Shown one piece after another: positions 11,192-52,703 of a stretch of 64,000 nt of DNA. Positions within the stretch are counted from its first letter, which is position 1. Each line of letters opens with the position of its first letter. The notes beneath the pieces were generated by a model. That model saw only the letters and a list, made by a program, of their open reading frames with translations. It made no database searches and was not told where the DNA came from. The translations under genes and the position numbers were made by a program. Origin of the DNA: Selaginella tamariscina (lineage: Eukaryota; Streptophyta; Lycopodiopsida; Selaginellales; Selaginellaceae). The stretch covers positions 124,001 through 188,000 of the forward strand of contig PUQB01000333.1 in the NCBI GenBank assembly GCA_003024785.1, in the 5' to 3' direction.

Positions 11192-12023
11192 ATGGGATCA
11201 CGGGATTCTTCACAAGAGAATGCGTCGGGTTCTTTAGAAGAGGATAAAATGAAAAGCAGTGAGGAGAAAGAAGAAGTTGAATATCCTCCTCTGATTGGAC
11301 TAGGCCGTTCAAGTGACGGTGTTTACGGGGTGAGTGAGAAGCATGTGTTAAAGATTTTGCTTCCAGATATAAATATAGATTACAAGGAAGAATCAGCTGC
11401 ACAGGTAGCTGCATTTGAGGTTACAAGAGGAACTATCAAGGTTCCCAGAGTGTGTGGTGCATGGGGAAGTGCGGAAGAGTTTTATGGCTCTGAAGAAACC
11501 CGCGGCTTAATAGATCATGAATACTTACCTTGGCTAAAGTACAAGGTTAAACACCCCTTCGTTATAATGGAGAGACTTTATGATGTAGAGCCTGTTTGGT
11601 TTAGAGGTTATTGTGCGGTTTTGGAATATGCAGGTTATGATTTGGTTCAAGTGATAAGAGAGCTCGGCAATTTTTGCAGAAATGTTCTTCATCAAAGGGT
11701 ATACGTTTGAAGATGTGGAGTTGGTTCTTTGTAGTGCAGGACTTTATTTGATAGATTTTAGCTACTGTAAGCCAGCCCGAGGTATTTCTGCTAAACAAGT
11801 GGTGAGCCACATCTACGACTCCATTGTGGATCTACATGAAGCTCAGTTGCTTCCACGGCCAGGTACAAGTCTGCATGAAGCCTTTCGAGATAGCTTTCTC
11901 GAGGTGGCGACCGCTTACCGCCCGGAACTGGCAGAGGATATAATATCTGAATGTTTCACAGCTGATCGTCTTGGGGTAGGTGAATCCAAGAGTTCTGATA
12001 CAAGATGTGATACCCGGAGCTGA
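11192..12023 (+). pseudogene. Kinase-like family, copy A (one visible frameshift)
   Basis: The protein starts MGSRDSSQENASGS at an ATG shared by all three copies. An acidic, Ser/Glu-rich N-terminus leads to LIGLGRSSDGVYGVSEKHVLKIL, which resembles a glycine-rich loop plus a VAIK-type Lys. The later YLIDFSYCKPA (copy B: YLIDFGFCKPA) resembles the DFG segment, and HPFVIMERLYD could be the hinge region. No canonical HRD motif is present; only a GY-[DT]-F-[NE]-D-V segment lies 17 residues before the IDF Asp. I infer a divergent kinase or pseudokinase fold; the family is not identified. A one-base loss near 11677 shifts the frame. The C-terminus differs from B and C: it lacks the acidic tail and KKRR end, and stops after CDTRS. 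Confidence 0.5.
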
Positions 12024-12029
12024 TATCTG

Positions 12030-13915
12030 AACGTTTCACAATTTCAATTACTATTTATATTTGTTTAAAACTAGATAATTAAAATACACATATACACAAA
12101 TATTTTCACACTTAGAATTATGATTTAAGAGTTCTCATAATTCTAAATAGGATAATTTAATATTTAACAGATTCAAAAACATTTTTAAATCTTGTATATA
12201 GTAGGATAAAGGATATTTCTTATTATTAATTTTAAAATTAAAATAATAACCTTATAATTACGTTTTAATTCCATTTTAATTTTATTGCACTTGAATTTGA
12301 ATTAAAAAGTATTTACATTTCACTTTTATTTTTTAAAAATTTGTCTTCTATTATATATTATATTTTTTTAATCATCACAACACACACAAGCACTAGATTG
12401 TCTTAGAAGATACAAATGTTTTTTATAAACCTTATTAAAAGATTATCTAATTATACAAAAAGCAATTTAAAAAACTCAAACTTATGGCTTTATTAGCTCA
12501 ATTCTCTTTTAATTGTTTTTATTGTAGTTGAACATCATTACTAATTTATAGGCAAAATTGATAATTAGGTTCCTGACATTTTTAACAAAAAAAAAATAAA
12601 ATAAAATTGGTTTACATTTTGAAAACATAATGTAATTCTTCTCTTGCTATGCTCTAACATAAAATGTGCATATGTCATGATTCTTAAAAGGTACTCGTGT
12701 AGAAATCGTATTAAATATATATATTTATTTGAAAGGCTTTTTTACAACTTTTTAACGGCCGTTTGTACACATTATTTTCAAGCATATTAAAAGTAAATTA
12801 TGTAACCAACACACATGCACACACGTGTGAGTGTGTGTCACTCACACGTTGACGTGATGTTTATGGTAGAGTAATATAATGTAATATATAAACATAATAA
12901 AGTAATACAAACATAATAAATGATAGAATATAAACATAAGGTGAGATATTAAATATAATAGGTTTAAATTTACAAGAGAAATTATTAATTAGTATATTTA
13001 TTTTTATATATTAATAATTAATTGTATTGAACATTTTGAACCTTTTCTAACTCATTTAATACTAATAGGAAAATTTTAAATGGCAATCAAATGTATTAAT
13101 TTCATTTTAATTACGTTTGCAACAAAATATATAGATTTGCAACCAAGTTATAATTTGTACTTTTAGAAAAGTATAATATAATGATAATATATTTATTTTA
13201 TACACAACAAACCTAAAAAGTTAATAAGTTTTACTATTTTAAAATGAGAGCTAATAATGATAATTCAAATAATGTATGTGTTGATTTTTAATAATCAATA
13301 TTAAAATGTTTTCATATAAAAAAAATGAATGTCATATGAACATTCACTTCTTTATAAATTGTTATAAAACATTCACTATTTTCTATAAAAAGAAGCACTT
13401 CTATAATATAAATGAGATTTAAATATGAATATTTTTTTTAAAGATTGTGTTTTTTTAAACAAAAGAAAATATAAATACGCACAAATAAATAAAAAGTAAG
13501 AAAATATAAATGCTTAAAAAAAAAAAATGATTATATGTAATTCCTTCACACACAAATGAATATATAAATAAACACTTACATAATCTTGTTAATAAGAATA
13601 ATTCATTTGGAATTGTTTTTTCAAATGAACCATAATTACACATTTTTATTTATTTTATAATTAAAAAGAAAAGTTAAATACATATATACACAATGTAAAT
13701 AATATATATAAATTTAAGCACTAATACAAAAGACAAAAGACTTCAAAAATTTATGAAATGAAATGACAAAAAAAATTAATGTGAAAATTAATTTTGATTG
13801 TTTATGTCAAATTCTTATATAAATCTTTAAATAAAACATGAACATTCTTAAATATGAAAACTTTTAAACAATATATTTTAAAAAAATACAGTTAACTTAC
13901 ATAATATCATCCTTC
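12030..13915. other. AT-rich intergenic DNA
   Basis: No coding region, RNA gene or clear element is visible. The only local structure is a CACACGTGTGAGTGTGTG-type palindromic stretch at about 12820-12850 (ACACACGTGTGAG-GTGTGTGTCACTCACACG), which can fold on itself. Confidence 0.5.
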
Positions 13916-13916
13916 T

Positions 13917-14140
13917 AATTATTCACTAATTTGGAGCGCCGCCTAAATATGGCGGTGCCTAAATATAATAAAATGAAATATTATAATAATACATACGTGG
14001 GCAGAACAATATATGTGTGCATATGATACACATGCACAATAAACATGGGCAAGACAATATATGTGTGCATGTGATACACACACATTAATTAATTATGAAT
14101 TTTTAATTTAAAAAAAACTGATTATATAAACACACATCTG
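13917..14140 (+). repeat. Foldback-type repeat arm with GC-rich hairpin
   Basis: CACTAATTTGGAGCGCCGCC-TAAATAT-GGCGGTGCC begins this arm, and the GCCGCC/GGCGGT pair forms a small hairpin. It is followed by ACGTGGGCAGAACAATATATGTGTGCAT and its near repeat 60 bases on. The whole arm matches the complement of about 15205-15435, giving an inverted pair about 1.5 kb across. GC content of the tip contrasts with the surrounding AT-rich DNA. It resembles a MITE or foldback transposon end. Confidence 0.6.
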
Positions 14141-15083
14141 GCTATATTGGACAGAATTAGATAATCGTAACAAAAAAAAAAAACATTAGATAAAGAAATT
14201 TAGATTTAAATCAAAAATTAATAAATTTAATTTTTTTAAAGATTAATAAGTATTCATTATCATTTATCATTATTTTAAACTTCTTTATCCTCTTAATTTC
14301 AAGAATAAAACCAAACCTTATTATATTTTAATAAATTAATTAAATAAAAAATTAATTATTTATTTAAAATTAATCAATGTAACATTTCCACTCAACATTA
14401 TATTATATAACAATCGAAAAGCATTTTAAAATTAAATTTTTATTAAAGCTTAAACAATTAAAAATCTTTTAAATTAAGATTTTATTAAAGTTTGATAATT
14501 CTTTATGACTTTAAATTTTAAAAAATTCATAAATAGATTGAATTTGAATGTGAGATACACACATAATTACTCTCGTGCTTATAACTGGTTAAACAAGAAT
14601 TAAGAGATATCTTTAATACTAATTATTTTTTACTATCTCTATTAAATAAATTATTAATTTACTGAAAAATATGATTTATCATGCATTATGTAGTTTAAAT
14701 TCTTTTTACCTTTTTTTAACTTTCATTCATTTAATGTATAATATACAATATTTAAGAATAATGATGACTTCTTTATCAAAACTAATATTAATGAATGTAA
14801 TTTCAATAAACATTCATGATCCTAACCTAATACATGGGACTATGTAATAATGATATATTAATAATAATATTATTAGTATTACAATAACATTTATTAGTAT
14901 TACCATAATACTTTTATTATGATTTTGATTACTTTATTGTCATTCCTGTTTATTTACCACGATTATGTAAGAAGCAGTAATTTCTAATTAAAATTAAAAA
15001 TACATATCTAAATTATTAAAATAATTCTTTTTCAATTTACTTAGTTTCTATTTTATTTTGTTTATGATTTTAATGGGGTTAGA
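14140..15083. other. AT-rich spacer between foldback arms
   Basis: No open frame or known element is visible, only A/T-rich sequence. It may be internal DNA of a foldback element or unrelated DNA caught between two insertions. Confidence 0.4.
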
Positions 15084-15451: not shown

Positions 15452-15699
15452 GGTGACCTTTCACTTTGTTAATGATCATTAATTAAATTTAAAATGATAA
15501 AATATGTAATATGATTTAAAAATTAAAACTGAAATGTACCCATGTTTAAGAGTCAATAATAAGATTAAAAGCAAATACATGTATAGTGACATATGGATGG
15601 TGATTGATTACATGTGTTAGTGTTGTGTCATAATTACAATGTAATATGGTTATTTTAAAAATTATTCACTATTACTTTTTTATTTTATTTACTTCAATT

Positions 15700-17100: not shown

Positions 17101-17838
<738 letters not shown>

Positions 17839-17839
17839 G

Positions 17840-22423: not shown

Positions 22424-24268
22424 CTAGTGTCCTTCAGACTCCACTAGGTTTAAACTCGACTCTCGATCCAGCTCCCAGCTTTTGGAAGGCACCTGCCCAT
22501 CTTGATGCCTCACTGCTGGGATTCTATGGGAGAATCTGAACAGCTCAGTACCCAAAACTCTCTCCACCTTCCCATTTTCTCCCCTTGTAAACACATGCCC
22601 TTCCTCCCCAACCTTCTTCAGCCTCACAACCAAAACCCCGTTTTCCTCACTGTAGTCCTCTAAAACTAGCACTGGTACATAGCTAAAGTCTTCATGCCCA
22701 TCCTGAGATTTAATTTTCAGCCACCCCCTGTTCCAACCGTGAAACATAGCCCACACTTCCCCCGTGCAGGATACACTTGATAATGCGCCTTCTTCTTAAG
22801 GGCGTCATCTCCAATAAGTGTCCGAATGTCTTCAACGAGAGCCAGTCGTACCGCTTCATCAGCTTGAACTGTCCACAAGCCAAATAGTGACACACCAGCC
22901 AATCCTTCTCGTCATCGTTACACGCCACAGCTTCCAGCCACCTCACCTTGATAGCCTCCTCGTTCTTTACCTCTTCCACACGTCCATACCACCTCGGCAT
23001 CCCGTCTGAGTCATCATATATAGCCCAGAACTGATCCTTCTCCACATTAGAGAGCGTGCGGTCCCCGTCAAAGTCGTAGGCATGTTCATGTATACGTTGC
23101 TCTACCTCCTGTATGCTCACCTCCTCATCGACTGATCTACCAGAATTCTCCGGTGTGCACATCTTCTTCCTCGGTCCGAACTCCACCAGATCGTCGTCCT
23201 CGTAGATGTACTTCGCATTATTACGCTTCCTTGAAGACCTTCTTGTCGGCTGCTCCGTCTGTACACCATTCTCGACGTGTATTTCATCTTCCTCGATGTC
23301 CACCACTTTCTGCGTCTGTTTGCTTGACTCCCCATTAGACTCCGGCTTGGCTTTACTCTTCTCGGACTCCGGGTTCTGTCCGTGGTCCGTTCGCTGCTGT
23401 CCAACACCATTCTCTTCTTTCTTCACAGTTTCGGGCATCGGCCCCTTTCTCTTCACATGATCCTCAGCTGTCTTCTGTGACTGTCTCTTCTGCTTTTCGA
23501 CCTTCTCCTTGTCCTTTCTTTCCTTCTTAACATGCTCCATCGCTTGCTTCACGAACTCCATAGTTGAACTTGGTGAGCTTGCGGGGGAACACCAGTTCTT
23601 TGGAAAGCACCCACGTTGGAGAAATTGAACCCACGTCCTCCGTTCAGGTTGACACCGTTAGCGTTCGCTCTCTGAAGCTCACGGGCTACGAAGTCCTTCT
23701 TGCACTTGTCACACAAGAGCCGGCAATTCAAGAAGCATCTCTGGTACTGGAATTGCAACCGGCAATGCGGACAGACCGTCCAAAATGAATTCGAATGCGG
23801 ACTTGCGGTACGGACTGGGATGAAAGTCGGAGTAACTGGGGCGGGAGTCGGAAAAGGGCGCCTTAGAGGTACCTTGTTCCTCAGCAGGTCGTGCTTGCTC
23901 CGCTTGGTTTTGTCCGAGAGAATGCCGAATGCTTCGCCCACGAGCTTGAAAGCGGCTTCTGCACCTACGGACTTGTTCTTGTCCGGATGAAGATGGAAAG
24001 CCAGCTTCTTGTACTGCTTCTTGATTGTTGCGTCATCGGCTGTTGTTTCCACTTCGAGAATTCCATACCAGTCCGTCTCAAGTCCGACCTTATTCTGCGC
24101 TTTCGTGTGTACATTTACAATGGCAAAAAGCTGCTGAAGACCGTCAAGCTTCGGATAGAGCTTTTCGGCTCTCAGTAGGACCTTAGCTGCTCCGGAATAG
24201 TCCTGGCCCTCTAGTTTCTTCAACGCTAGCTCTTTTGCCCTCTCTGCTTCGTCCCTGTTGGCCTCCAT
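22424..24268 (-). CDS. DnaJ-domain protein with DUF3444 (frameshifts in this sequence)
   Basis: J-domain co-chaperone of the plant DnaJ/DUF3444 family; J domains stimulate Hsp70 ATPase, while the role of DUF3444 is unknown. In the first frame (23549-24268) the N-terminus MEANRDEAERAKELA is typical, the J domain spans about residues 66-130 with the HPD motif at 94-96, and two CxxC pairs (CPHC 166-169, CDKC 186-189) form a putative zinc-binding segment. The second frame (22710-23561) is Lys/Glu-rich linker, then NLS-like RRSSRKR, then DUF3444 with QFWAIYDDSDGMPRWYGRV. A third frame (22424-22756) contains WAMFHGWNRGWL and ends the DUF. At least three one-base frame breaks (about 23555, 22840, 22755) are needed. 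Intron-free coding region; the chosen ATG is the family start. Confidence 0.88.
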
Positions 24269-29994: not shown

Positions 29995-31170
29995 TTATCT
30001 TCCTAAAAACATCTCCTGGTCTAGAAAATCCTGGTGCAAAAATCGTGTTGTATCCGGGATCAGATTATCACCTATCCATTCCTCAAAAAACCTGTCACCC
30101 TTGTCCATGATAATATTGTGCAAAATAACACAACATTGGATAGCATTAGACACAAGGTAAGGGTCCCCTCTAAATTGTTCTAGCCAGATACCTCCATTGC
30201 ATTTTAGTTGGCCAAATGCTCGCTCCACAGCGATCCGTGTTGATGAGTGCATGTAGTTCCAATCCGAAAACTCATACATACGGTGAGGAAAAGGGGTCAA
30301 CATACCAGGTCTCAGATCATACCCACCGTCTGCAATAAGGTACTCAGGGATAGGCCCAGATGTTGTTGAAATCACAGGCCCTGCAAGTCTTTGTTTTGCG
30401 TCTACCAGCTGTTTGAAAGTACTCCTTTGCCAAACTCTACGATCGTTGCATGAACCTGGCATCCCCGAAAAAACATCAAGAAACCGAGACTTACTATCCA
30501 CAATGGCTTGCACTTTCATGCTGATCTTCTCTTGTAATCCCTCCATTCCCTAGAATCAGAGTCCACAGGCAGCTCCAGAGCAACATGAGTGCAGTCAATA
30601 GCTCCCACAGTTAGGAAAACCATGAATCTTTTGAAAACCTCGCTTCACCTCTGAAGTTAGCATTGGTTCAGCGAACATGTCGTGGCCCAAGATGAGTGAT
30701 CAAGGCCTTCACAAAGCGCTTGAATGTCATGATGCATGTGGAGTGGCTGCAACCAAAGAGCTTCCAATCCCAAGCCAGGTATCCCCAGTTGCTAATCTTC
30801 TCAACGACAAAGCCACCTGTTTTGCCACTGAGTTACTCCTTGCGTATTGTTCTCAATCCTGGGGGTGGATGGCGAACCAACTCCTCATGCAAAACCTCAC
30901 AGAGATAATCGAATGTTGACGTGCTCACCCTAAAAAATTGTCTCCATTGTTCAGGATCAACTCTTTTCACCTCAGTGTAAAACAAATCCCACCAATGCAA
31001 GGACGTGTTTTGATGTAATAATCACCTATGATTTGTCTCTAGGAACTTGCCATTCAGAAGTTCTTGAAAAAGAACAGCAGTTGTTGAATCACCCCTTCTT
31101 AGACAAACTGCTTAAATGAAATGAAACAAGAATAGAGAACTGTGAACTTGAGCTTGTCGCCAGTGCTTGA
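29995..31170 (-). pseudogene. PIF/Harbinger transposase (DDE_4 nuclease), frameshifted
   Basis: The C-terminal open frame (29995-30546, 183 residues) carries VFSGMPGSCNDRRVW, the second catalytic Asp in YLIADGGYDLRPG (residue 73) and the Glu in STRIAVERAFGQLK (residue 108). The first Asp lies upstream in another frame: GAIDCTHVALELP at about 30555-30600. Further upstream come QWRQIF-RVSTSTFDYLCEVL at about 30890-30950, the usual N-terminal helical segment. The frame is broken at about 30548, near 30640 and at a stop near 30845. Because D, D and E all remain, the copy decayed recently or its breaks are sequence errors. Confidence 0.8.
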
Positions 31171-36790: not shown

Positions 36791-36791
36791 A

Positions 36792-36881: not shown

Positions 36882-36942
36882 TTTATTCTTGACAGACCAG
36901 TTTTTTTTAAAAGTTATGTCCACATTTGACATATTTTAAACG

Positions 36943-38857
36943 TTGTTTTCTTTCAAGAACCCTAATTCAAGCCTTGGCTATGGCGATATAAGTGTTCTTG
37001 TGGTGGGAGGCGGCGTGGGGGGACTAGCGGCATCAGGGATCCTGGCGAAGAATGGGATGAAAGTGACATTGCTGGAGAAGAATGCGTGTGTTGGCGGGCG
37101 TATGCAGTCGATGGATTGGTCGGATAGCCATGGTCGCAGCTTCAGATTCGATACTGGTCCTAGCCTCCTCCTTCTTCCTCAGTGTTACAGAGACGCATTC
37201 TCTGCTCTAGGTGCGTGCGTGCGTGTGGTTTCTAGATTGCATCTATTACGTTGCATTTCATCTCTTTCTATGTATGTATTTGTGTACAAGCACATGCATA
37301 GTAGACCCATTCATAGCATGTATGTGTATAACTATATACTTGTGTACGTTTGTTATATGATTCTCAATAGTTGGGTTAACACGAATACATATGAATAAAT
37401 GTGTGTGTGTGTGTGTACAGTCCATTTATCCGGATTCTATATGTGCATGTACGCACAATGTATGCAAAGATGCATTTTCGGTCTATATTACATATATATA
37501 TATATATAAACAAACATTATTTCTTTTAACTGTGATAGTACGTCTGAATGAATTAAAGACGTTAGCTTGCTCTGCTAGAGAGAGAGAGATGGGAAGTACA
37601 TAAGATCATCATTAGCATATATTGTATGTTCTTGCAAGCGTTCATATTTACTATTTACCTTTTATATTTAGGGGAGAATATCGAAGACTATGTAACTATA
37701 AAGAGAGTGGAGCCAGCAGCGTATAGAATATTCTTTGCAGAGCCAGGAGAACCACAGTCACTCGATTTACTATACGACGTCCAGAAGATGTGCTCTCAAT
37801 TGGAACACGTGGAAAAAGGATCTTCAGCAGAATATCTTCGTTTTCTTTATAATGCCAAGCAAGCTCTTGATAAGGTATACATATACCAAGTATTATATAC
37901 ACTTGATACAATATACGCTTGAATATGAAATATTTATGATTTATACATTACCAAGTATATTCACGAATCTACATCTATGTGAGTTTATAAACCACAAGCA
38001 CACACGCATGCAAGCCCATACAACCATACACGCACACATTATCAGCAAGGCTTCAACATAATTATTTCAACTAGTTATGTAAATAATAGTTATATCGATA
38101 TATCGATATCTTTATATTTTTGTAAGTTATACACTAGTTTTATACACATACAACTATACAAATAATACAATACACATTGGTTTAATAAACACGGTTTCGT
38201 CCTTTCCGCTTAATTATGTCATCACATACAATGTATTATGTTGTCGATACGATTATGTACTTGTAAGTTTCTAGATAACTAGACAATTATTTTAGCATGA
38301 TGTATTAAGTTGCGTTTATATGTCATAAGGTGTGTGTATATCTATATATCTATCTATCAATATAATGTATGTGTACATTCACACAAACATACATATACGC
38401 AGACATACACGTGGACACATGTCTATTAATATGTTTATTACATACTATTGTAGGGGACTGAAAATTTTATTGCAAAAGATTTCAGATCATTCTGGGAATA
38501 TGCGAATATTTTCTCGCTGATACCTTTGCTCAAACATCTTTCACCCTTTGAGCTTCTTGGACAACACCATTCAAGATTAAGTACTTACTTTAAACACCCA
38601 AATTACGTGCTTTATTCACATTCCAGGTATTACTATATATAATATTTATACCACACATATTTATATGTAAGCGTACATAGTATATATATAAGCTAATCAA
38701 AATGCTTTTATATGTATATGTATGTTATTGTGTATAGCATGTGTAGATAATTGGATATAATTAACCACACCTAATCAAGTATACACACACAGACACAACG
38801 CGTATATCACCATGTATGTAGTTTTAAAATCTCTCTCTCTCTCTCTCTCTCTCTCCA

Positions 38858-38901
<44 letters not shown>

Positions 38902-41273
38902 ATATATATATATATTATATATAAATATATATATATATATAATATATATAATATATATAATATTATATTAATATATATATATATATAGACACACACACAC
39001 ACACACACAAATATGCATATGTAGTATAATGCTTATCTACATGTGTCTTATATTTTTGTACATAATCGATAATATTCATATGTTAATTTGCTTTTATATT
39101 TTAGGACCTTTATGTTGGATTAACTCCTTAATAATGCACCTGGAGTATTAGTCTTCTAGCAGCTACAGAAATAACAGACGGTGTCTGGTATCCAATGGGA
39201 GGCTTTGGAAATATACGCGACGGTTTAACTGCTGCTGTTACAAAAGCCGGTGTCAAGATTAAACTTAACTTACCCGTTAAACAAATTAATCACAGACAAG
39301 GCAAGGTAAAGTAATAAACTAATTTTCCAGTTACATAGTATATAACATAATAATTACATGCATATGTATGTACGTATATTTGCATATCCTCTTTTTCTAT
39401 ATACACACACACACATGTAACTACATATATACACACACATTTAATTGTCTTAATTATCAGTTACTGAAGCCAGTGTTTACTGATTTATATGATATTAAAA
39501 GGTTAGAAGTGTTACACTCGAGAATGGCAGTGTTATAGAAGCCGACATAATCGTGGTTAATTGTGATCTGCCATACGTCTACAAGGATATTCTACAAAAT
39601 GAAGGTATATCTATCTTAATTAAGTTACGAAAGTTTATACATCACTGTTTGCCTATGTATGCATGTGTTCTTTATATATATATGCTTTCGTTATTCTAGT
39701 TTATGAGTGTTAACTCTTTGTTTTAAAACTTATACTGCACGTACCACGTAATGTATATACGTGCATACATCTTCATACTAAATAAGCTTTGAAAGAACTC
39801 GTCAGGATGGCGTGCCAAGTCACATTCACGAAAAATCGCAAACTCCAGATTCAGGTGAATAGTGTTACATTATTATACATTCATTGTGTGTTATGTAGGC
39901 GAGTATATAATATATATGTGCCCAGACATTTATATCCTTGTGTATGAATATATGTATATTTACTAAAAGAAACACGCGCGCGCGCGCACACACACACAGA
40001 GTCAACACTAATATGCTTAAGTATAAATATATCAAAGTATACTCATATATAATAGATGCATGTGTGTGTGGTATAAATTGCATTATTGTTACAGTGCTGT
40101 GTAATAGCGTTTAATTGGGCTTTAAGTACACGTATAGAAGGCCTTAATCACCACAATGTATTTCTCTCGGATCAGTATATAGATAGCTGGGTTCGAGCAT
40201 TTCTCCGGAATCTTTTCTGCAAAGACCGAATTTCTATGTTCACGCTCCCTCCAGAACAGATCCGACTTGTGCACCTCGGGTAACTCCTAACTTAACAATG
40301 TGTGTGTATGATAGTCTTGTTAACTAAATATACTGTGTGTAAGCATAGAATTATATAATGTGTATGTGTTTCGGTGTATGCACTTGTTATATATTAAAGT
40401 CGGTCAAATACGACTGTAAGCATGAAAGAACTGACGGGTAGTTCTGTTATACAGCCCCTCCCTTAATCTCAATTAAGTAAGCTAATTACATTAATGATTT
40501 TATATGCATATAGAGGATATAAATAAAGAAGACGGTTAATGCATTTCATCTATATGCAGATTTGGTATATGTAAATTTTCTTAAATACACGTTATTTTCC
40601 TGGTTTTTAGTATTTGCCAATTAATCAAGTTTTAATTAATTACCTATACAAAAAGAGGGGCTGTATACCATAATCGCCCCTAAGGATATATGTTTGTCAC
40701 TCACATATACACCCTGACATATGTATATATTATGTTATGATATATTTCAATATTAATTTATATGTAAACAGATGGAGATGCATTAACAGTGCTTTTACCT
40801 GTGGCAAACCTTGGTGAAGGATATGCACAAGGCAAGTCGGAAAACGATATCAGCATGATCAATGCAGGGAGAAGAGCAGTATTACAAACCTTAAGCTCGG
40901 CAGGACTTGGGAACATTAAAGAGTTTATCCTTAACGAGACCGTATACACACCGTATAACTGGCAGTCTTTATACAATCTACAACATGGTGCTGCATTTGG
41001 ACTTTCACATGACTTCTTCCAGCTCGCGTACGTATTTAATTATTATTTCAACTTCATTATAATATTTATTGATATATTTTTACTAAATATGCTAATTAAT
41101 CATATATATTTTATGCTTTTTAAAGGTATTTTCGGCCAGATATTGCGGAGCCACATATAAAGGGAGTTTATTTTGTGGGTGCATCAACGAGACCAGGTAA
41201 TGGCGTACCTCTTGTTCTTATGGGTGCAAAACTTACTGCAGAACGTATATTAGAACACTATTATAATCAATAA
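36943..41273 (+). CDS. CrtI/CRTISO-family FAD-dependent oxidoreductase (phytoene desaturase-like)
   Basis: Nine exons are visible: about 36943(or 36959)-37210, 37672-37874, 38454-38626, 39105-39305, 39502-39604, about 39806-39854, 40095-40279, 40772-41027, 41126-41273, nearly all with GT...AG borders. Exon 1 holds the dinucleotide-binding signature VLVVGGGVGGLAASGILAK plus LEKNACVGGRM and FDTGPSLLLLP, all typical of CrtI/CRTISO flavoproteins. Exon 4 has YPMGGFG and exon 5 the ADIIVVNCDLPY segment; exon 8 holds VLLPVANLGEG. The last exon carries GVYFVGASTRPGNGVPLVLMGAKL, the C-terminal FAD-binding signature. The family desaturates or isomerises carotenoids in plastid or membrane. No ATG or transit peptide is seen at the 5' end, so a first exon may lie upstream of 36.9 kb. 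One-base breaks occur at about 38600, 39125, 39150, 40195 and near the exon 7/8 border. Exact substrate not inferable. Confidence 0.88.
38831..39009 (+). repeat. Compound microsatellite in CrtI-like intron 3
   Basis: A (TC) run, a (TATC) run, long (TA) tracts and a (CA) run follow each other. Such tracts are prone to length errors and to real length variation. Confidence 0.95.
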
Positions 41274-41690: not shown

Positions 41691-42120
41691 GTGAAATGCT
41701 GTCACAGAAATGTGGCTTCGCATCTCTTTGTGCGAGAAAATCGGACATTTCTTCCTCAGATTCAAGCAAGTTTCATACAAAACCGAGATTTCATGCACGG
41801 ACTCAAGCAGGTTCCATGGGGCGGCGAGGATGAGTGCGGGTTTCTACAAGAAGACCAAGGATCAGAGCTATCCGATTCAAACAGGTTTCATGGTGAATAC
41901 GAGATTTCTTACCCTGGGGCTGCGAGGATGAATGCGGGTTTCCACAATGGGAGAATCACTCGGCGCTGCTGTTCAGCGATGCTATCCGAGGTCTCTTTGC
42001 TCGGATTCAAGCAGGTTTCATGAAAAACCGGCCCTATAAGCAAGTTTCATGGCGCTGGGAGGATGAATGCGGGTTTCTACAAGCCGAACGAGATGAGGGT
42101 CACACGGCGGTGTTGTGTAG
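41690..42120 (+). repeat. Imperfect tandem repeats in the ftsZ leader or N-terminal region
   Basis: ATTCAAGCAGGTTTCATG-like strings occur about five times, and GAGGATGAATGCGGGTTTC three times, along with two copies of CACTCGGCGCTG/CACACGGCGGTG. The last repeat supplies the apparent ATG and first codons (MNAGFYK) of ftsZ. Other copies read RMNAGFHNGR-ITRRCC and so on, so the repeat may lengthen or multiply the transit-peptide start. Confidence 0.75.
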
Positions 42121-44511
42121 CGGTGCTAGAAGCGATAGGCATGGATGCTGCAAGGATTAAGGTGATTGGGATTGGTGGAGGTGGGAATAATGCTGTCAAT
42201 CGCATGATTGTAGTGGGCTTCAGGTGGGTAAATCTCATGTCATAATAAAAATGATAGTATGTATGTGCATTCATATGGTACAGTTTATGTGGTAAGCGTA
42301 TTTCTAAAAATGTTGTAACATTATCTCTTTGGATAACGGAACATTATATTCATATGCACATCGTAATTGAAACTTGTATGTTTACTTTTCAGGGGGTTGA
42401 TTTCTGGGCCATAAACACTGACGCACAAGCGCTTGTGCAATCTTCTGCTACGCATCGTTTGCAGATTGGAGAAGAACTAACACGGGGACTCGGTAAGAGA
42501 TAGTTTATTTTCCTTGTTTTGATTTGTGTGTGTACGCTCGCTCGCGTTATGCATCTGTCTCTCATTTTTCCTTGTCTATGGTTCTTATATTCACACATGT
42601 ATATAACAACGATTTGTTTAGAACCGGTGGAAATCCGAGCCTAGGTGAAGAGGCTGCCGAGGAATCTAGAGAGGATATAAAAGTGGCAGTTTCTGACTCG
42701 GATCTCGTTTTTATCACCGCAGGTATATGTATACACACACATGCATGCGATTTTACTTAACCTTATATATGACTATTAGGAATGGGTGGGGGAACAGGCT
42801 CTGGAGCTGCACCAGTTGTTGCTCGTTTATCTAAAGAGAAGGGACAACTTACTGTTGGAGTTGTTACTTACCCTTTCACATTCGAAGGAAGACGGAGGTC
42901 ACAACAGGTAAGTATGAGTACACAACATCACATGCATAAATATGTGTTGTGGGCTTGTATTGTGTGAAGTTCTTACATGGTTGCGTAATATTATATTTAT
43001 TTACTGCATAACTAACGTATATAATTTATGATTAGGCTGTGGATGCGATTGACCGGTTAAGGAGCAACGTGGATACACTCATTGTGATACCAAAATGATA
43101 GGCTTCTGGACGTTGTCCAAGAACACACTCCTCTCCAGGATGCGTTCCTTCTCGCAGATGATGTTCTCAGGCAGGGTGTTCAAGGCATTTCCGACATAAT
43201 TACTGTAAGTTTAACACTTGAGTTTGTTTATGACGTATGCGTGTTTTGTAATTGTGCCTCTATGCAAGTTTAACTGTGAGTATACTCATCATGTATATTT
43301 TGTACCTGGGTATGTTTCCGTTGTGTATATTTATGCGTATGTAATTTCATCTCTTGTGTGTATTGCATGCTTCCATGTTAATGTACGTGTTTTTGGAATT
43401 CAAAATAAGTCTGAAAATTTTCGTCGTGTACATCGAGCTATTCTCGTGGCGTATGTGTTATGTGTGCATATATTACACAAACACACACACTCTAAACTCA
43501 AGTATGTCTACCTGTACTTATGGGATATATAGATTAGACACGTTGTCCAATAGACCAACATACACAACACGCACACACGCACAATGTATATACACAAAGC
43601 ATGTAAAATGTAGATATGTAGATTCCTACAAATAGATGCCGGTTGCATGTATAAGTGGATACAGATAAGACGTTTGTACTTACGTGCAACAACTTTATAG
43701 GACATTTATGGACACACCCAGGACATAGACAGACACGCGTCTTCTGAGTGTGTTATTTCCTGTATATTGTGTGTGCGTGTGTGTTTGTGTAATATATGTT
43801 TATTGGTTGCAGATTCCGGACTAGTTAAATGGACTTCGCAGACGTCAAAGCAGTCATGACAAACTCTGGTACGGCAATGCTTGGAGTCGGAACGGCAAGT
43901 GGTAAAACCGCGCAGAGGAGGCTGCTCAACAGGCTACATCTGCACCGTTGATTGAGAGATCGATCGAGAGTGCAACTGGAGTTGTGTATAACATTACTGG
44001 TGGACGCGATTTGACGCTTCAAGAGGTCAACAGAGTTTCACAGGCAAGTGTGTTATATATACGCATACATGCATAAGTGGATACATTGATGAGTGTGTGT
44101 GCGCGCGCGTTTACGGATGATAATGCATACACAGAGGATTGTGTGTGTGAGTAGAGAGAGAGGCATATCTTTTATAATATTGTTTTGCATACAGGTAGTG
44201 ACTGGTTTGGCAGATCCATCAGCAAACATAATATTCGGTGCGGTGGTGGACGAGAGATATAATGGTGAAATTCACGTCACGATAATCGCAACGGGGTTTT
44301 CACAGAGTTTTCAGAAAACCATATTTGATCCAAAAGCCGCGTCTAACACTACTCCAGAAGTCAAGAAAAAGGTATGTATTTTATCCATTCATATACATAT
44401 GCATATATTCGTGGTGTGTATGATGTATGTACGTGTTTCTAGGTGGTAGAACAGCTTCCTTGGAAACGTGGTGTTCCTGTTTCATCCAGATTTGCACAAG
44501 GTTTACGATAA
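42063..44511 (+). CDS. ftsZ: Plastid-type FtsZ (FtsZ1-like) division GTPase
   Basis: Tubulin-like GTPase that forms the chloroplast division ring. Eight exons: 42063-42227, 42393-42492, 42622-42722, 42780-42907, 43036-43204, 43813-44043, 44195-44371, 44443-44511. Motifs in order: [30 protein letters not shown], the tubulin signature [54 protein letters not shown], and [21 protein letters not shown] (T7/synergy region), ending [31 protein letters not shown]. The GSGAAP and RLLDV features favour the FtsZ1 rather than FtsZ2 group. The intron after exon 6 uses a GC donor (CAG|GCAAGT). One-base breaks occur near 42622, 43094, 43817-43830 and 43906. The N-terminus is short; start taken from the only in-frame ATG. 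Confidence 0.93.
44044..44194 (+). other. GC-AG intron in ftsZ
   Basis: Protein continuity [13 protein letters not shown] places the border at CAG|GCAAGT, with acceptor CATACAG. The GC donor with otherwise perfect flanking bases is the known minor class of U2 introns. Confidence 0.75.
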
Positions 44512-46207
44512 AGATTACTTCTTTTAAGTTGTTTAAACTAGTATTATCTGTATGCCTGTACTAGGAGCATATTAATGTCTTATTTATTAATTAAAACATG
44601 CTCGATGCCTTAGTGCCTTTCTCAGCTGTCTTTCTGAGCAGTTTCTGTATGTATATGTCAAGTCTGTATACACACACGCACTCGCACGCACGGACACACA
44701 CACACGTGTTGTTCAAAGTATGCGTTCTCTATGCTGTGTTAATGTATTTAAGTAGAAAACTTAAAATTTGAAATATTCAGAAAATCACTAAATTTTAATT
44801 ACATCGTTTTTACCAAATAACGGTGATAACGTTGGCATGTCACTTAAGCATTAACTTAATTTTATTATCTTATGATTTTTAATTAGATAAATATATTAAT
44901 TAATGTATTTAAGATAAATTAAGCTTCACAAGTGTGAGAAAATGTGTACATACATGCATGTGATGTACATCTATGGAACAAATATATAAATAAAAAACAT
45001 ATATGCACATATATTCAAAAAGATAAATTCATACAAGGGAATATACTTTATTTGTTCGTAAGATATCTTAATGCTTTTAATTTTATAAAATTATATATAA
45101 TTCACATGCAAACTTGCTTGATAATTAATAATTTCATTATTTAATTAGTATTTATTAATAAATCGTAATTATTGTTAATATATTTATATTAAGCTTTTAA
45201 ATCTATTTAGTCTTTTTAATTGTGTTTAATTAATATTTTTTTTAAATCAGCAAAGTATGAATTCATTTTACTGTATATGTTGTACATGTAAACCCACCAA
45301 GTTTTTCCAATATATCCTCAAAATTTTTAAAACTATATCTTATTTTCTTTTTAAAAATTTAAATATTTTCTCTAAACATAATAAATTAGAATATACCAAG
45401 TCAGTTTACCATAAATAAGTTTAAATATAAAGATTTTAACCATTATAAAAAATTTAAAATAGAAAAACATTAAAAAAATTAAATGAAACAAATTATATTA
45501 AAGTTATATGCTATTTCTATAAAATGTTAATATAGATATTTATTTAATCAAATCCAAAGATTAGTCACTTTATTTAATAAAATATTCTTGCTATTTATTA
45601 TTGTGTTCGAATTTCAAATGATAAAATAAAATATATTAATTAATGTATATAATTTAAATGTTATACTTAATGTAAGAAAATAGTAGTAATAATCTTTAAA
45701 TAGCTATATTATATTTGTACTATATACGTCTTAATTAACTATGTTTTGGAGTTAAATGTTATAAATTACAAATTAATAATGAATTTATATATTTTGTAAA
45801 AATACATTTTATTAAAGTGTATGAAGTTCTCATATTTTATAAAATATAATTTTAAAAACTTCATATAATATATATGTAAGTAGGAAAAATTCATATATAT
45901 ATATGCTAAATTACGAGCTATATAGACAGCGTATGTAAACGTACGTACTGTGACAATAATAAAGCAAATATACAACATGATAATGTGCATTTCAGCATTA
46001 TTTCTTCGTATATATATATTCATTTTTATTTATTTAATTTTTTCAATTTTAGGAAAAACATACACATCTCTTCAGATAGGAATATTTGGTGAATATACAA
46101 AATATGCAAGTGAAAAGTGAAATATATAGTGTCTTAAACAGTAGCACATAGAAAACAACAAGTGCCAAACATAAACAAATAAGCAACAGTGACTATGATA
46201 TTCTCTT
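44512..46207. other. AT-rich spacer with two dispersed repeat segments
   Basis: About 44800-44960 resembles 320-420 and the complement of 2000-2110. About 45290-45700 resembles the complement of the kinase-like upstream region (compare 50790-51200 and 15700-16110). Open frames here are AT-rich low-complexity and not supported as genes. Confidence 0.5.
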
Positions 46208-47053
46208 CTAATCAATTCGCCTCTTCTTGCTCTCACTTCCATCGGCATCAGATGTGTCATCGTAGCCTTCGTCAGTTTCAGAACTCTCGGATTCACTTAC
46301 CCCAAGACGATCAGCTGTGAAACATTCAGATGTTATATCCTCTACCAGTTCGGGGCGGTACGCGGCACCACCTCGAGGAAGCTATCTCGAAAGGCTTCAT
46401 ACAGACTTGTACCTGGTCGTGGAAGCAACTGATTTTCATGTAGATCCAAAATCGACTTGCAGATGCCCTCGCCACTTGTTCAGAAGAAACATCTCGGGCT
46501 GGCTTACAGAAGCCAAAATCAATCAAATAAAGTCCTGCACTACAACGAACCAACTCACATCATTAAAGTCATACCCTTTGATGAAGAACATTTCTGCAAA
46601 TAACCTGCCGAGCTCGCTTATCACTTGATTCAAATCATAACCTGTCAAAACGTCACGAGAACCTCTAAAGAAAGCTCTCTCAGCATCATAAAGTCTCTCC
46701 ATTATGATGAAGGGCTGCCTAACTTTGTACTTTAGCCAAGGTAAGTATTCAAGATCTATCAAGCCGTGGGTTTCTTCAGAGGCATAAAACTTCCACACTT
46801 CCCCATGCACCACACACTCTAGGAACATTGATAGTTCCTCCTGCAACCTCAAATGCAGCTACCTGTGCAGCAGCTTCTTCCTTGTAATCTATTTGTGTAT
46901 ATGTATCAATAACCTTCAAGCATACTTCTCACTCACTCCGAAAACACCGTCACTTGCACGGCCAATTCCAATCAGAGGAGGCTTCAGAACTTCACTGCCT
47001 TTCACCTCGTCGTCTTCTGAAGAACCCGACGCATTCGAATCCCGTGATCCCAT
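46208..47053 (-). pseudogene. Kinase-like family, copy B (fullest copy, several frameshifts)
   Basis: Start MGSRDSNASGSSEDDE at 47053 and end SESKKRRID stop at 46208 define a protein of roughly 280 residues. Segments: acidic N-terminus, PPLIGIGRASDGVFGVSEK (Gly-rich loop-like), YLPWLKYKVRQPFIIMERLYD, GYDFNDV, YLIDFGFCKPARDVSSEQVA with an intact IDFG, then a C-terminal acidic tail DEGYDDTSDADGS followed by a basic KKRR, which could be a nuclear signal. Frame breaks near 46918, 46810, 46550 and 46470. The IDFG and the glycine loop support a divergent kinase-like fold (inference); the catalytic-loop region lacks HRD. Family unidentified. Divergent neighbour of copy C, 4.9 kb away. Confidence 0.5.
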
Positions 47054-48600
47054 TCCTAATAAGTTAAAATTCACCAATCTGCAAAACGTGAAAGTAAAAG
47101 AGAAGTAAACCAAGTAAACACACACACACTTTGATACGAGAGATTGAAATTACCTGTTTTCTTGGCGGACACCGTCCAGATGAACTTGTCAGGTAAACAC
47201 TTAAGCAATGATCATTGGGAGATTACGAAGCTTTTACAGGTTTGTAAGCAAGCAGCTGATGCAACAATGATCGTTTGAGAGCCAGTTGTTCCTCACGGCA
47301 ACAATGATCCTACGGCCTCAAATAGGAAACGTGGCCGATTGTAACACTAAAACTGGTTTTTCAAGGACAAGCTGTGGTAAGTCGATGGGACAATAACCAC
47401 AGTGACAAACAAGACAAAGACAAGTATTCAAAAATAAAAATTTATGCTTTCTTTTATTGTATACTTGAGATATAATAATTTACTTTGATTAATTAAATAT
47501 TCGCCACCTTGATTATTTAAATTTAAAGACTCACTGTTCCGTTTAAATAATGCTTTATAACATTACCTCTTTATATATATCTATATATATATATAGAATA
47601 TTATTAATAACATGCGCCTGATTATTCTGACTCTACAGTATTCCCGGACACCGCTTGCAAGAAAAAACAGTTACACGATTACATTGTTAAAGCAACACCT
47701 ACACATATAAGAATATACGGTCTCATGTTTACAATTAACACTGTATTTCTGTTTGAGATTAGATTTACAAAATAAACTTATTTACTAAGTTACTCCTCTA
47801 CTCACAACAAAGACCATAGACCATTACACAATATAATAAAATCATATTTCATAAGCTAAAAACTTGATATGATACATGTATAAAATTATATATAGTCATA
47901 CATAAAGTAAATTTACAATAATGAGTTTGTAATCAAAATAAATAGACTAAAATAATTATTGACATAGTTCTTATTTAAATTTATTAGGTTAAATCTCATA
48001 TGATATTTAACACTAGGAAAATTAGATATAGAAGCGAAGTTTCCATATTTCAAAATTTTAAAAACTGTGTTTTTTTTTAAGATTTATAATTTTTTTTAAC
48101 ATAATAAATTGATAAACAGTATATATAGCTTTCTTATTTTATTATAACAAAGTCAGTTTTACCATAAATAATTTTAAATAACATTAACATATAAATTTTA
48201 ATTATTAACTTTAAGAAAAAAAAGAAACAAAATTATTTCCAAATTTATATACTATTTGTAAAATGTTTAATATAAATATTTACTTAATCAAGTCCAAATA
48301 TTAGTCACTTTATTTAAAATTTAATGAAATATTTGTTATTTTATTTAAATGTGTTGGAATTTTAAATGAAATAGAATGATATAATTAAGTTGTATATTTA
48401 ATATATATAAATTATTTTGAAATAATATATATATATATATATATAAATATACTCTATAATTCTAAATACATAAATCGAGAGTTGAAATATTTACGTCCTC
48501 TTACAATTGTTAACAATATATCTAGATCAAAGTGAACGCTGTGTAGCGCGTGCTTTGGGAAACATGCAAAGCTTTATAGTGAGTTTCTTCTGTGCTTTAT
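47054..48600 (-). repeat. Inverted duplication, arm B: leader and upstream region of kinase-like copy B
   Basis: Read on the minus strand, this runs parallel to 50380-51976 before copy C. The leader intron (AACAG|GTAATTTCAATCTC), GAGGCCGTAGGATCATTGTTG, the AT-rich block (TAAATCTCATATGATATTTAACACTAGGAAA on the plus strand at about 47990-48025) and the outer segment (GATCAAAGTGAACGCTGTGT near 48530) all recur. A small (TA) repeat at 48425 interrupts it. Confidence 0.7.
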
Positions 48601-49310
48601 GTATTTTTATATATAAAAACATATATTAACACTCTATATAGATGCATAAATAACTAAATAAAAATATAATCTTGCTTTGTTAAACTGGTAATTATTTCAC
48701 ATAAACAGCAATACATATATATATAATATAACCTCTTAATCTTCCTGAGCATGTACCAGTAAGTTAATTAATCAAGTTAATGTTAAAGCTGCAGTCAGCA
48801 TCTAATGATCTTCCTGAGCATACCAATAAGCTATTTAATCACAGTCAATGTTACAGCTGCAGTCACATCTACAAAGGAACTCTTTGGTAGAAGTTTCACC
48901 GATTACCGGATTACGAGAGTTGACACTGGTTGCGCGGTGAAATCTGGTCTGCTCAAGACACATCCACACGGGTACATCTCGAAACCTAAGGAACTCGAGG
49001 CAGTTTGGAGTGCAGTGTGCCGGAGTTATCATTCATTCCTTGTAAGAACCAATGCAGAATGCATTCGGCAAAAACTAAATCAACCTAAACACTAGCATGT
49101 ATAACTATGTGACAAACCATAGTTAGGAGTTCTGGATTCTAAAATGGGACATACGAGTGGTAGAACTTGCAACGGAAAGAGGCCTCACATGAGCACTGTT
49201 GAAAAACTACGGATCATCCTACATGTCAACAAGGAAATACCACTTATTCTGGATAGCATCCTGCCATTCATATAACAAACATGAATAGTATACGCCAGTA
49301 AAATTTATAT
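48601..49310 (+). other. Centre of the inverted duplication; unassigned ORF at 48805-49095
   Basis: An open frame at 48805-49095 contains ELFGRSFTDYRITRVDTGC and KELEAVWSAVCRSYHSF, with composition closer to coding than to the AT-rich flanks. Parts (about 48870-48935) match 62815-62905. I do not recognise it, and it may be part of a mobile element. Confidence 0.3.
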
Positions 49311-49990
49311 CTCATATTTAAACGTGCAACACTTGAAAAAATGGGAAGCTAAGTCGTAGCGAAGTTTTCTTGCGGGACCAAGACGATTCTGAAGATTCCT
49401 CTTTCGTCCTTGCTTATCCTGATAATTGCTCCTACTTTTTACCATAAAATCTCATAGAATGTCTCTCGTGTAAAATCCTCTACCTCTCTTGCAAAGTGAC
49501 ACCTTTGGAGGCTTCCCAAAGCAAAAGGTAAGGGCTCTTCCCATAAGCTTATAACAGTAGGATTTCGCCAGTAACCCCAGTTAACTAGGTTTTCAATGTC
49601 CTCGCCACATCCTACGTCATAAGCAATGAGAATGACAGATTTGCCTGGAAAACGACCTTTTCTAACAAAGGCTTTGTAATGAAGATGAAACAACGGCCGC
49701 AAGGTTCTGTAAAATGCCAATCACCACGACGAGTCATTGATATTTTAGCAAGATCGTCTAGATCATCGAGAACAAGACGTCCACCGTATCTTGATGGCTT
49801 TATGCATCTCTTCATCTTTTTTTGTAGACGTTCTGCCGTTTGTTTGTCTTTGCATAATACTACCACCTTGCCGCAATCCCATTAAGAACTTGTGCCACTG
49901 CCATGAACTTCTCCATCTTGGCTGCCTTGTTTGTTACCACACACATTGAGAACTTTTCTGGCTTCATCCTTATCTCTGTCAGACCTAATT
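49310..49990 (-). pseudogene. Helicase C-domain-like gene, copy 1 (degenerate)
   Basis: Starting at an ATG at 49916 the minus strand reads MEKFMAVAQVLNG, then VVLCKDKQTAERLQKKMK, then ILIAYDVGCGEDIENLVNW, ending FYEILW at 49439 after a frame change near 49700. Upstream in frame, KPEKFSMCVVTNKAAK extends it to about 49960. The order resembles the C-terminal half of DEAD-box helicases of the DBP5/LOS4 type (F..TK..A..L...M, VLI.TD....G.D...V..V). The catalytic RecA motifs are not preserved (AYDV in place of TD, no HRxGR), so activity is unlikely. This is inference from pattern only. A paralogue lies at 59.07-59.52 kb. Confidence 0.4.
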
Positions 49991-50379
49991 AATAAAGGTT
50001 CTACATATTTAAAATCTAATTTTGTAATAACTAGGTGTATGTTGTGTAATTTAATATTTTTTGAAAATAAATAAAAATTCAAGATGTATAGTATTACTTT
50101 CACTTATTACATTATTAAATTATTATTCAAACTTATTTTGTAAGTAACTCAATAAGTAAATTTCTCTTTCTACCTAGATATTAGGAAGATCAAGAGGTTA
50201 TATGTGTGTGTTTGTGTTGTCGTTTATGTGAAATAATTATCAATTTAACAAAGCAATTTTAAAGACGTTAGGAAAATAACTCAAGTTTCACGGTCAAGAT
50301 TATAATTTCCCTTTCTTTTATATTTTATTTATTCATTTATGCTATATTATTATAAAGATACATACGTATATGTACGTGT
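49990..50379. other. AT-rich spacer
   Basis: No gene recognised between the helicase-like remnant and arm C of the inverted duplication. Confidence 0.4.
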
Positions 50380-51976
50380 ATATACAGAAGGAACTTCACT
50401 ATAAATATAATATAGCTTTTACATGTTTTAATGTGTGTGACAGTGTGTCAACAAGCACACGCTTGCGCACGCACGCGGCACAGCGTTTCCTTCGATCTAA
50501 TATATGTTAAACATATATTCTATTGATTAAGAGAAAATTACATATGCACTTCTCAGATTTTATTTACATATATATTATATGAATCCTTAAAGTTATATTT
50601 TATTCAAATATTAGAACTGCATACACTTCAATAAAATTTATTTCTAAAAAATATATAAAATTCTTTTATTAATTTGTAATCAAGTAAACATATATATTAC
50701 AATATAATATAGTTATTTAAAAGATTATTATTTTCTTTCATTTCAATTTATTATAAATTAACCATATATATTTATTATTTTAAAAATAATTTTCTATATA
50801 TTAAATATATATACTTAATTAATATCATTCTATTTCATTAAAAATTCCAACACAATTAAATAAAATAACCAGAATATTTTATTAAATTTTAAATAAAGTG
50901 ACTAATATTTGGACTTGATTAAATAAAATATTTATATTAAACATTTTACAAATAAATTTTGGAAAATAATTTTGTTTTCATTTTTATAATGGTAATCTTA
51001 AATGTTAATGCTATATTTAAAATTATGGTGAACTGACTTTTTATATTTTAATTTATTATGTTTTAAAGAAAAATTTTAAATCTTTAAAACAAAGAAACAC
51101 AGTTTTAAAAAATTTGAGGATTTTTATGTAAATATGGAACTTCGTGGTTCTATATGTAATGTTTCCTAGTGTTAAATATCATATGTATCATAATAAAACC
51201 AAGTTTTAAATTCAGATTCGATAGTATTTATATATAATAATAATATGACATAAAGATATTAATTTAATAATAAAAAAAAGTCACCATAATATATACGAAA
51301 ATCAATTCAAACTTGGTTGGTCAACTATATGCAAATGATGAATATGAACTAGGAAATGTAAAGACACATGTATAGGTACACAATACACAGGTAGAGTCAT
51401 TTTGTTATCAGGTTAATCCATATGATTATATTTTTTATTCATGTATACGTATATATGTCTGTGCGAGAGAGACACCTTCAAATAAGTAGGTTATTATGTT
51501 TATGCCATTGCTCTTACTGTTAAAAAATGTAGTCTATTTATTTGGATTACAAATTTGTTCAGAACCGCCCACGTTTTCTAGTTGAGGCCGTAGGATCATT
51601 GCGGCCGTGAGAAACAGGATCTCCAACGATTATGTTAGGTGTTTTTCTGGATTGTTACATCAGCTGCTTTCTTACAAACCTGTAAAAGCTTCGTAATCTC
51701 CCAATGATGATAATGGAAAATCATTTTTAATTACATTGCTTAAGTAAGAGATTTGCCCCACAGTTGCGCATTCTTTCTCACTCTGCCACTGCCGCCTTCT
51801 TCACACATGAGAAGTTCATCTGGACGGTGTCCGCCAGCTCCTAGTCAGCCCCGAACAAGTAGAAAACAGGTAACTTCAATCTCTCGTATAAAAGTGTGTG
51901 TCATATTGTACTTGTTTACTTCTCTTTTACTTTGGCGTTTTACAGATTGGTGAATCTCTCTCTTAACTTATTAGGA
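50380..51976 (+). repeat. Inverted duplication, arm C: upstream region and leader of kinase-like copy C
   Basis: Matches the complement of 47054-48600 and, over 50790-51440, the orphan copy at 15700-16430. The leader intron at about 51870-51945 (AACAG|GTAACTTCAATCTC ... TTTTACAG) is kept. The GAGGCCGTAGGATCATTGCGG start of the leader is at about 51583. Confidence 0.7.
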
Positions 51977-52703
51977 ATGGGATCACGCGATTCGAATGCG
52001 TCCAGTTCTTTAGAAGAGGACGAGGTGAAACGCAGTGAGGAAGAAGAAGTTCTGGTGATTGGACATGGCCGTTCAAGTGACGGTGTTTTCGGAGTGAGTG
52101 AGAAGCATGCTTTGAAGATTATTAATACATATACACAAATAGATTACAAGGATGAAGCTGCTGCACAGTAGCTGCATTTGAGGTTGCAGGAGGAACTATC
52201 AATGTTCCCAGAGTGTGTGGTGCATGGGGTAGTGCCTTCATTATAATGGAGACTTTACGATGCAGAGGGAGCTTACTTTAGAGGTTATCATGAGGTTTTG
52301 AACGATGCGGGTTATGAGTTGAATCAAGTGATAAGCGAGCTCGGCAAGTTATTACAAAAATGTTCTTCATCAAAGGGTATGACTTTAACAATGTGGAGTT
52401 GATTCGTTGTAGTGCAGAACTTCATGAGATGTTTTTCCTGAACAAGTGGCGAGGGACATCCGCAAGTCGATATGGGATCTACATGAAGATCAATTGCTTT
52501 CCGACCAGGTACAACTCTGCATAAATCCTTTCGAGATAGCTTCCCTGAGGTGGCGACCGCGTACCGCCCGGAACTGGTAGAGATATAATATCTGAATGTT
52601 TCACAGCTGATCGTTTTGGGTAAGTGAATCTGAAACTGATGAAGGCTACGATGACACATCTGATGCCGATGGAAGTGAGAGCAAGAAGAGGCAAATTGAT
52701 TGA
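51977..52703 (+). pseudogene. Kinase-like family, copy C (true deletions)
   Basis: Begins MGSRDSNASSSLEEDE at 51977 and ends SESKKRQID stop at 52703. Compared with copies A and B, two blocks are missing: about 85-105 bp between GAWGSA and FIIMET (the EEFY...YLPWLKYKV part), and the block coding LYLIDFGFCKPA. A single-base loss after AAAQ (near 52168) also shifts the frame. Loss of the IDFG segment cannot be explained by homopolymer errors, so this copy is a real pseudogene. The glycine-loop-like GHGRSSDGVFGVSEKHALK remains. Confidence 0.6.

Follow-up and report, generated by a model that had tools for sequence, protein, structure and literature searches.

A small, decaying or error-riddled gene family of Selaginella tamariscina with a possible Bud32/Rio-like kinase-like domain

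A 64-kb window of the Selaginella tamariscina genome (the 64,000 nucleotides at positions 124,001 to 188,000 of the forward strand of contig PUQB01000333.1, assembly GCA_003024785.1) carries three related gene copies, A (11192-12023, +), B (46208-47053, -), and C (51977-52703, +), and we addressed the identity and the condition of the family that they form. The family is real, small, and decaying or error-riddled. The best-supported identity of its product would be a kinase-like domain of the Bud32/Rio type, which we regard as plausible and somewhat favored, although not demonstrated. The fuller proposal, that the copies constitute a decaying, locally duplicated small plant gene family encoding a divergent Bud32/Rio-like kinase-like domain, is one that we could as readily see overturned as upheld.

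The three copies reported in the preliminary description were recovered at the same three places when blastn was run with the three regions as queries, which established their homology, and reading of the sequence confirmed their positions. In gap-free columns of the coding sequence (CDS), nucleotide identity was 667/765 for A-B, 550/656 for A-C, and 580/647 for B-C, and the copies clearly form a family well beyond chance; the 172-codon open frame of A, taken on its own, was moderately unusual, being reached in 13 of 2000 simulated sequences. The GC content of the CDS is 44-45%, compared with 31% for the window. No fourth copy was found in the window by blastn with the three regions, by nhmmer, or by a sensitive tblastn search, whose best outside match had an E-value of 0.089; the nhmmer model was made of A, B, and C themselves, and thus its recovery of those copies proves nothing. 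The motifs that had been listed as shared were only partly common to all three: the MGSRDS start and GR.SDGV[YF]GVSEK occur in A, B, and C, MERLYD and LYLIDF[SG].CKPA in A and B, and an acidic tail followed by KKR in B and C but not in A, whereas C has lost the LIDFG/CKPA block to a 31-nucleotide (nt) gap and carries ME and RLYD in different frames.

The evidence for a kinase-like domain came from hhalign comparison of the family profile with a profile of archaeal Bud32, the genes for which were gathered by a motif scan (at least 119 stretches, 105 segments of which had enough flank to enter the profile). The family scored 42.0 with A first and 42.5 with B first (P = 4.6e-6 and 2.5e-6; probability 86.5 and 88.8%), the corresponding scores against a rebuilt Bud32 profile were 42.3 and 42.8, the C-lobe alone scored 42.4 (P = 1.1e-6), and copy A alone scored 38.9. 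Because three kinase profiles and several query forms were tried, these P values are to be relaxed about tenfold. The real score was not reached in any of 400 column shuffles (maximum 25.4), the reversed profile scored 13.8, and the later shuffle sets, each of 300, reached maxima of 27.3 and 29.8 for half-domains and 33.0 and 24.3 otherwise. When unrelated open reading frames (ORFs) from the same archaeal loci were compared, 1 of 391 exceeded the family score and the next best reached 29.6; this single ORF is presumably a RIO-type kinase and would then be a true Bud32 relative, and the matches listed for it by phmmer included itself and ORFs of archaeal Bud32 loci. In the alignment of copy B, the Asp of GYD falls on the Asp of HGD, LYLIDFG falls on the YFIDFG block, and the match runs past DFG into the C-terminal stretch.

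We then read the copies against the ten key residues of the protein-kinase-like superfamily, G52, K72, E91, P104, H158, H164, D166, N171, D184, and D220, as they are given in PMC1821047. Equivalents of the glycine loop (G52) and Lys (K72) can be read as IG.GR.SDGV[YF]GVSEK..[VAL]LK in A and C, and across a frame break in B, with the N-lobe profile at noise. A P104 equivalent, VPRV, and a hinge, [VI]IME, are present in all three copies, with 31 residues from Lys to Pro in A; it takes extended alignments of low confidence to bring VPRV and ME onto their Bud32 counterparts, although ME lies within the scored alignment of B. Several Glu residues occur in a stretch suitable for helix C (E91), none of which could be singled out, and no residue could be assigned to D220. 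The D184 position of DFG is occupied by IDFG in B, which aligned with the Bud32 IDFG (P = 2e-6 to 5e-6), and by the Asp of IDFS in A, and is deleted in C. At D166, B and C have Asp, that of B being the residue aligned to HGD, and A has Thr. The absence of an HRD motif noted previously was borne out, the nearest candidates being KGYDF (B, C) and KGYTF (A), and so was, for B, the position of the candidate Asp 17 residues ahead of the IDFG Asp; the same distance is found in the Bud32 consensus (18 in one aligned row). The two His residues, H158 and the H164 of HxD, were not found, the B alignment having F at H158 and K at H164 (G at the latter if a one-residue gap is removed), and N171 is replaced in B and C by a Glu, five residues past the Asp, that aligned to the Asn. 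With the HxD His and the metal-binding Asn both absent, the protein would be an atypical kinase or a pseudokinase; if it is kinase-like, its catalytic loop is degenerate. In C, where 28 codons of A and B are missing, Pro and hinge Glu are separated by 14 residues, close to the 15 of the Bud32 consensus; this suggests a position in the loop between beta-4 and beta-5 for the 28 additional residues of the other two copies.

Besides the missing loop residues, several results weigh against a kinase assignment. Masking LYLIDF and one further residue reduced the Bud32 score to 23.0, the noise level, and masking everything after DFG left 28.0, so that the DFG block carries most of the match and the following stretch adds some. 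The N-lobe alone, with its Lys, scored 14.5 (14.1 after omission of the A/B insert), which is noise, and noise was also obtained with an eukaryotic protein kinase (ePK)-type profile (32 segments, 44 loci, from viral contigs) and with a phage HGDLH profile (68 segments from 80 loci; the other 37 of 117 stretches were unused). Escherichia coli SrkA, used as a control, scored 39.2 against the ePK-type profile and 48.4 against the phage profile, and weakly, 28.1, against Bud32. When 4380 ORFs were searched with hmmsearch, 10 of the 20 highest-ranking ones carried a kinase label; however, 2 of 60 shuffled profiles performed at least as well, and the lowest E-value from a shuffle, 0.018, was close to the 0.014 of the real profile. 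No kinase match was found in Pfam, NCBIfam, PHROGs, PADLOC, or PDB sequences; Pfam gave a single marginal match, to an exonuclease model (E = 0.06), and the PDB sequences gave three marginal ones (E = 0.72-1), none of them to kinases. Structure prediction, which the preliminary description had proposed as a check, gave two AlphaFold models (built on copy A plus parts of B and C) with predicted local distance difference test scores of 35.1 and 33.7, unusable and too low in confidence for meaningful fold matches. Three alignments (A1, A2, and A4) were set aside for misplaced short pieces, and two others (A3 and A5) were used.

These results leave a real, though lesser, chance that the copies are not kinases and form instead an orphan protein family whose LYLIDFG and glycine-rich stretch resemble kinase motifs by coincidence: the signal comes mainly from one 7-residue block, the N-lobe and the ePK-type and phage profiles are silent, the hmmsearch enrichment does not clearly exceed that of shuffles, and the structure models are unusable. 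This explanation has to contend with an hhalign score far over those of shuffles and unrelated ORFs, with a match that continues past DFG, and with motifs whose order and spacing fit the kinase pattern. Of the kinase-like fold originally suggested, a C-lobe of Bud32 type found support in the profile comparison, which aligned both DFG and the putative catalytic Asp of B, but the N-lobe and its Lys did not. In tblastn searches, no relatives were found in phages (query, first piece of A) or plasmids (query, A read through); scans of viral contigs (first piece of A) and prokaryote genomes (A read through), which sense close relatives only, also found none, and no plant collection was among those searched. 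Literature searches gave no paper on the family, a result that does not show it to be unpublished.

Among known systems, the family resembles Bud32/PRPK, the KEOPS kinase of the Rio-Bud32 cluster, in its C-lobe profile match (P = 1e-6 to 5e-6), in the 17-residue spacing between Asp and DFG, in its small size, and in a weak similarity of the stretch past DFG. HGDLTTSN is the catalytic motif of Bud32 and was present in the 105 Bud32 segments, which had been selected for it. The family, in contrast, has KGYDFNDVEL in B and KGYTFEDVEL in A; it also differs in lacking detectable N-lobe similarity, in the insert of about 28 residues ahead of the hinge in A and B, and in its acidic N- and C-terminal extensions. 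As the defining motif is not present, the family was rejected as Bud32 proper and should not be filed under that name. Pseudokinases share with it a kinase-like order of motifs and the loss of HxD and of the metal-binding Asn, but B has kept DFG and, by reading, Lys. A similar comparison with eukaryotic protein kinases (PF00069) finds by reading the order glycine loop, VxK, ME hinge, and DFG; however, there is no Pfam match, no match to the ePK-type profile from viral contigs, no HRD, and no APE segment was seen.

The condition of the genes was assessed from their gaps and substitutions. All three frames are broken through small gaps, one in A, five in B, and six in C. Copy C is further broken by the gap that removed its LIDFG block and has an 84-nt in-frame gap, corresponding to the 28 codons ahead of the hinge; the tail of A has an 11-nt gap relative to B, and an internal 25-nt stretch of A recurs in diverged form (84%) at the 3' end of that copy. 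Of the 12 small (1-2 nt) frame-breaking gaps, 9 are deletions as judged by both other copies, 3 could not be polarized (they include one place gapped in both A and C and another where C has no sequence), and none is a clear insertion; these counts rest on one alignment and leave uncounted a 2-nt gap at the extreme end of the C CDS. The ratio of nonsynonymous to synonymous substitution rates (dN/dS) was 0.98 for A-B, 0.97 for A-C, and 0.72 for B-C, with bootstrap 95% intervals of 0.62-1.68, 0.62-1.59, and 0.42-1.34 that all include 1, and the three codon positions are about equally divergent between copies. The copies are thus diverging near neutrally at the protein level, which speaks for relaxed constraint.

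Decay is not the only explanation for this pattern, and some of the substitution data speak against it. No nonsense substitutions were observed, whereas random placement predicts 3.8 (A-B), 3.9 (A-C), and 2.3 (B-C); the share of simulations without any was 0.02, 0.01, and 0.09, respectively, for pairs that are not independent of one another. The CDS is also conserved above the intron for A-B (Fisher P = 8e-5), with A-C and B-C not significant. An unrelated conserved gene in the window, encoding DnaJ, a Zn-ribbon, and DUF3444 (22427-24268, -), is likewise frame-broken: the frame of DUF3444 positions 10-114 is not that of positions 120-208, and DnaJ and the Zn-ribbon lie in a third piece whose frame differs from that of the first DUF3444 half. 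This breakage suggests deletion-type assembly errors or a pseudogene; a third break in the same gene is apparent from the reading of frames, without profile support. Some of the breakage in A, B, and C may therefore be due to deletion errors of the assembly.

Carried further, this explanation would make the copies intact and functional members of a fast-evolving kinase-like family, most of whose 1-2 nt breaks are long-read assembly deletion errors. The excess of deletions, the occurrence of in-frame gaps of 6, 9, 12, and 84 nt, the absence of nonsense substitutions, the broken DnaJ/DUF3444 gene, and an apparent break, by reading, in a CrtI-family gene of the window are all in its favor. Yet the 31-nt gap at the DFG block of C and the changed key residues and tail of A are not 1-nt errors, dN/dS is near 1, and the small breaks, five in about 0.85 kb of B and six in about 0.73 kb of C, contrast with two profile-supported breaks in about 1.8 kb of the DnaJ gene, and we consider intact genes rather unlikely. 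The CrtI-type phytoene desaturase family gene itself is multi-exon (36940-41270, +), with TIGR02734 matches in six of eight scanned pieces, one of them weak; its apparent break is near 38.6 kb, and both pieces there lack a CrtI match.

The arrangement of the copies points to local duplication. B and C, which point away from each other, are the two halves of a head-to-head inverted duplication, and A lies 34 kb distant. In every copy a leader of about 160-310 nt is followed by an intron-like stretch of 74-76 nt, with the start codon 25-46 nt farther on, and the GT-AG splice sites are kept in the alignment of all three. The shared spliced leader of the preliminary description accordingly stands as a common leader with a GT-AG intron, but would be an ordinary cis-spliced 5' intron, its splicing predicted from the sequence. 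Its proposal of a joint spread of gene, leader intron, and upstream DNA fits B and C, whose inverted duplication reaches well upstream, but not for A, which has in common with them the leader, intron, and CDS and, farther upstream, just a short AT-rich match with B. A repeat, R, lies upstream of both B and C and has gene-free occurrences at 15.7 and 45.3 kb. At the B-arm end of the duplication, a 67-bp tandem unit is present twice (48739-48871). A two-copy repeat, 78% identical, occupies 49295-49957, between B and C, and 58929-59562; it has similar minus-strand open pieces (VVILCKDKQ, FITKPLLEKV), and three scanned pieces gave no Pfam match.

Capture and spread of the gene by a mobile element was also considered, as A lies downstream of a degenerate Copia element (about 4687-10380, +, with Pol_BBD at 4.7 kb and RVT_2 at 9.1 kb, its end near 10.4 kb placed by reading) and repeat R accompanies B and C. 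However, the repeats detected near the copies are short (14-32 nt), and none of them resembles element ends; B and C belong to one large inverted duplication; R occurs without the gene; and the intron is present in all copies, which were thus not retro-copied after splicing. We regard this origin as very unlikely.

For a decaying Bud32/Rio-like family, we propose that local segmental duplication would have produced the inverted pair B and C and the dispersed copy A. The encoded protein would have about 230-280 residues and a single domain, putatively a divergent protein-kinase-like fold nearest the Bud32/Rio cluster, with a glycine-rich loop, the VLK lysine, the beta-4 proline of VPRV, the ME hinge, and DFG, and with a catalytic loop probably degenerate to G-Y-D, in which Glu would replace the metal-binding Asn. 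Its ancestor may have been a nuclear (acidic tail and KKRR), nucleotide-binding, kinase-like protein of weak or no phosphotransfer activity, from which the present copies would be decaying, A having Thr in place of the candidate catalytic Asp and DFS in place of DFG and lacking the acidic tail, and C being without DFG. If the family did branch from the Rio-Bud32 cluster, multiply, and lose its catalytic loop, it would be a natural test of the re-use of a kinase fold without catalysis; if the copies are just decayed relics of an ordinary gene, the lesson is one of annotation, namely that unpolished deletions hide such families. A bolder possibility, which we hold to be unlikely, is that they represent a previously undescribed family of small, nuclear, kinase-like plant proteins that either descended from Bud32/Rio or is its sister, in which the HxD-N loop became G-Y-D-x4-E, possibly with an unusual metal-binding Glu, and Lys and DFG were kept; the cluster, normally represented by one or few members per genome, would then have undergone an expansion specific to plants.

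Table 1. Coordinates of the parts of copies A, B, and C and of the inverted duplication in the window
Feature	Position	Strand	Basis or remark
Copy A leader exon, common to B and C	10914..11071	+	blastn, alignment; 5' limit approximate
Copy A 5' intron, 74 nt, GT-AG	11072..11145	+	sequence reading, conserved splice sites
Copy A open piece 1: acidic N-terminus, glycine-rich loop, VLK, VPRV, FVIMERLYD	11192..11671	+	
Copy A open piece 2, other frame: KGYTF, LYLIDFSYCKPA, C-terminal helical region	11682..12020	+	
Inverted-duplication arm with copy B and upstream repeat R	46010..48746	-	matching segments with gaps
Copy B leader exon	47154..47340	-	blastn, alignment; 5' limit approximate
Copy B 5' intron, 75 nt, GT-AG	47079..47153	-	sequence reading, alignment
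Copy B open piece 1: MGSRDS, glycine loop	46919..47053	-	
Copy B open piece 2: LKV, helix C region, VPRV	46791..46919	-	
Copy B open piece 3: FIIMERLYD, ELGRLFAEMFFIKGYDFNDV	46556..46789	-	
Copy B open piece 4: ELVRCSAGLYLIDFGFCKPARD	46467..46556	-	
Copy B open piece 5: C-terminal helical region	46369..46464	-	
Copy B open piece 6: C-terminus, acidic tail, KKRRID	46211..46363	-	
Inverted-duplication arm with copy C and upstream repeat R	50183..52880	+	matching segments with gaps
Copy C leader exon	51563..51869	+	blastn, alignment; 5' limit approximate
Copy C 5' intron, 76 nt, GT-AG	51870..51945	+	sequence reading, alignment
Copy C open piece 1: MGSRDS, glycine loop, ALK	51977..52168	+	
Copy C middle, broken over several frames; lacks 28 codons of A/B; stops ahead of missing LIDFG block	52168..52425	+	
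Copy C C-terminal part, several frames: acidic tail, KKRQID	52428..52703	+	

Elsewhere in the window, pieces of an FtsZ gene lie at 42024-44446 (+), with Tubulin/FtsZ GTPase and FtsZ_C matches in two scanned pieces and more by reading, and a piece of a PIF/Harbinger-like DDE transposase lies at 29995-30546 (-; DDE_Tnp_4, Plant_tran). Together with the DnaJ/Zn-ribbon/DUF3444 and CrtI-family genes and the Copia pieces, these make up a gene content that would fit a land plant. An inverted pair of 0.7-kb repeats, 84.5% identical, occupies 59561-60276 and 63186-63919, and a tRNA-Lys (TTT) gene is present at 2767-2839 (+).

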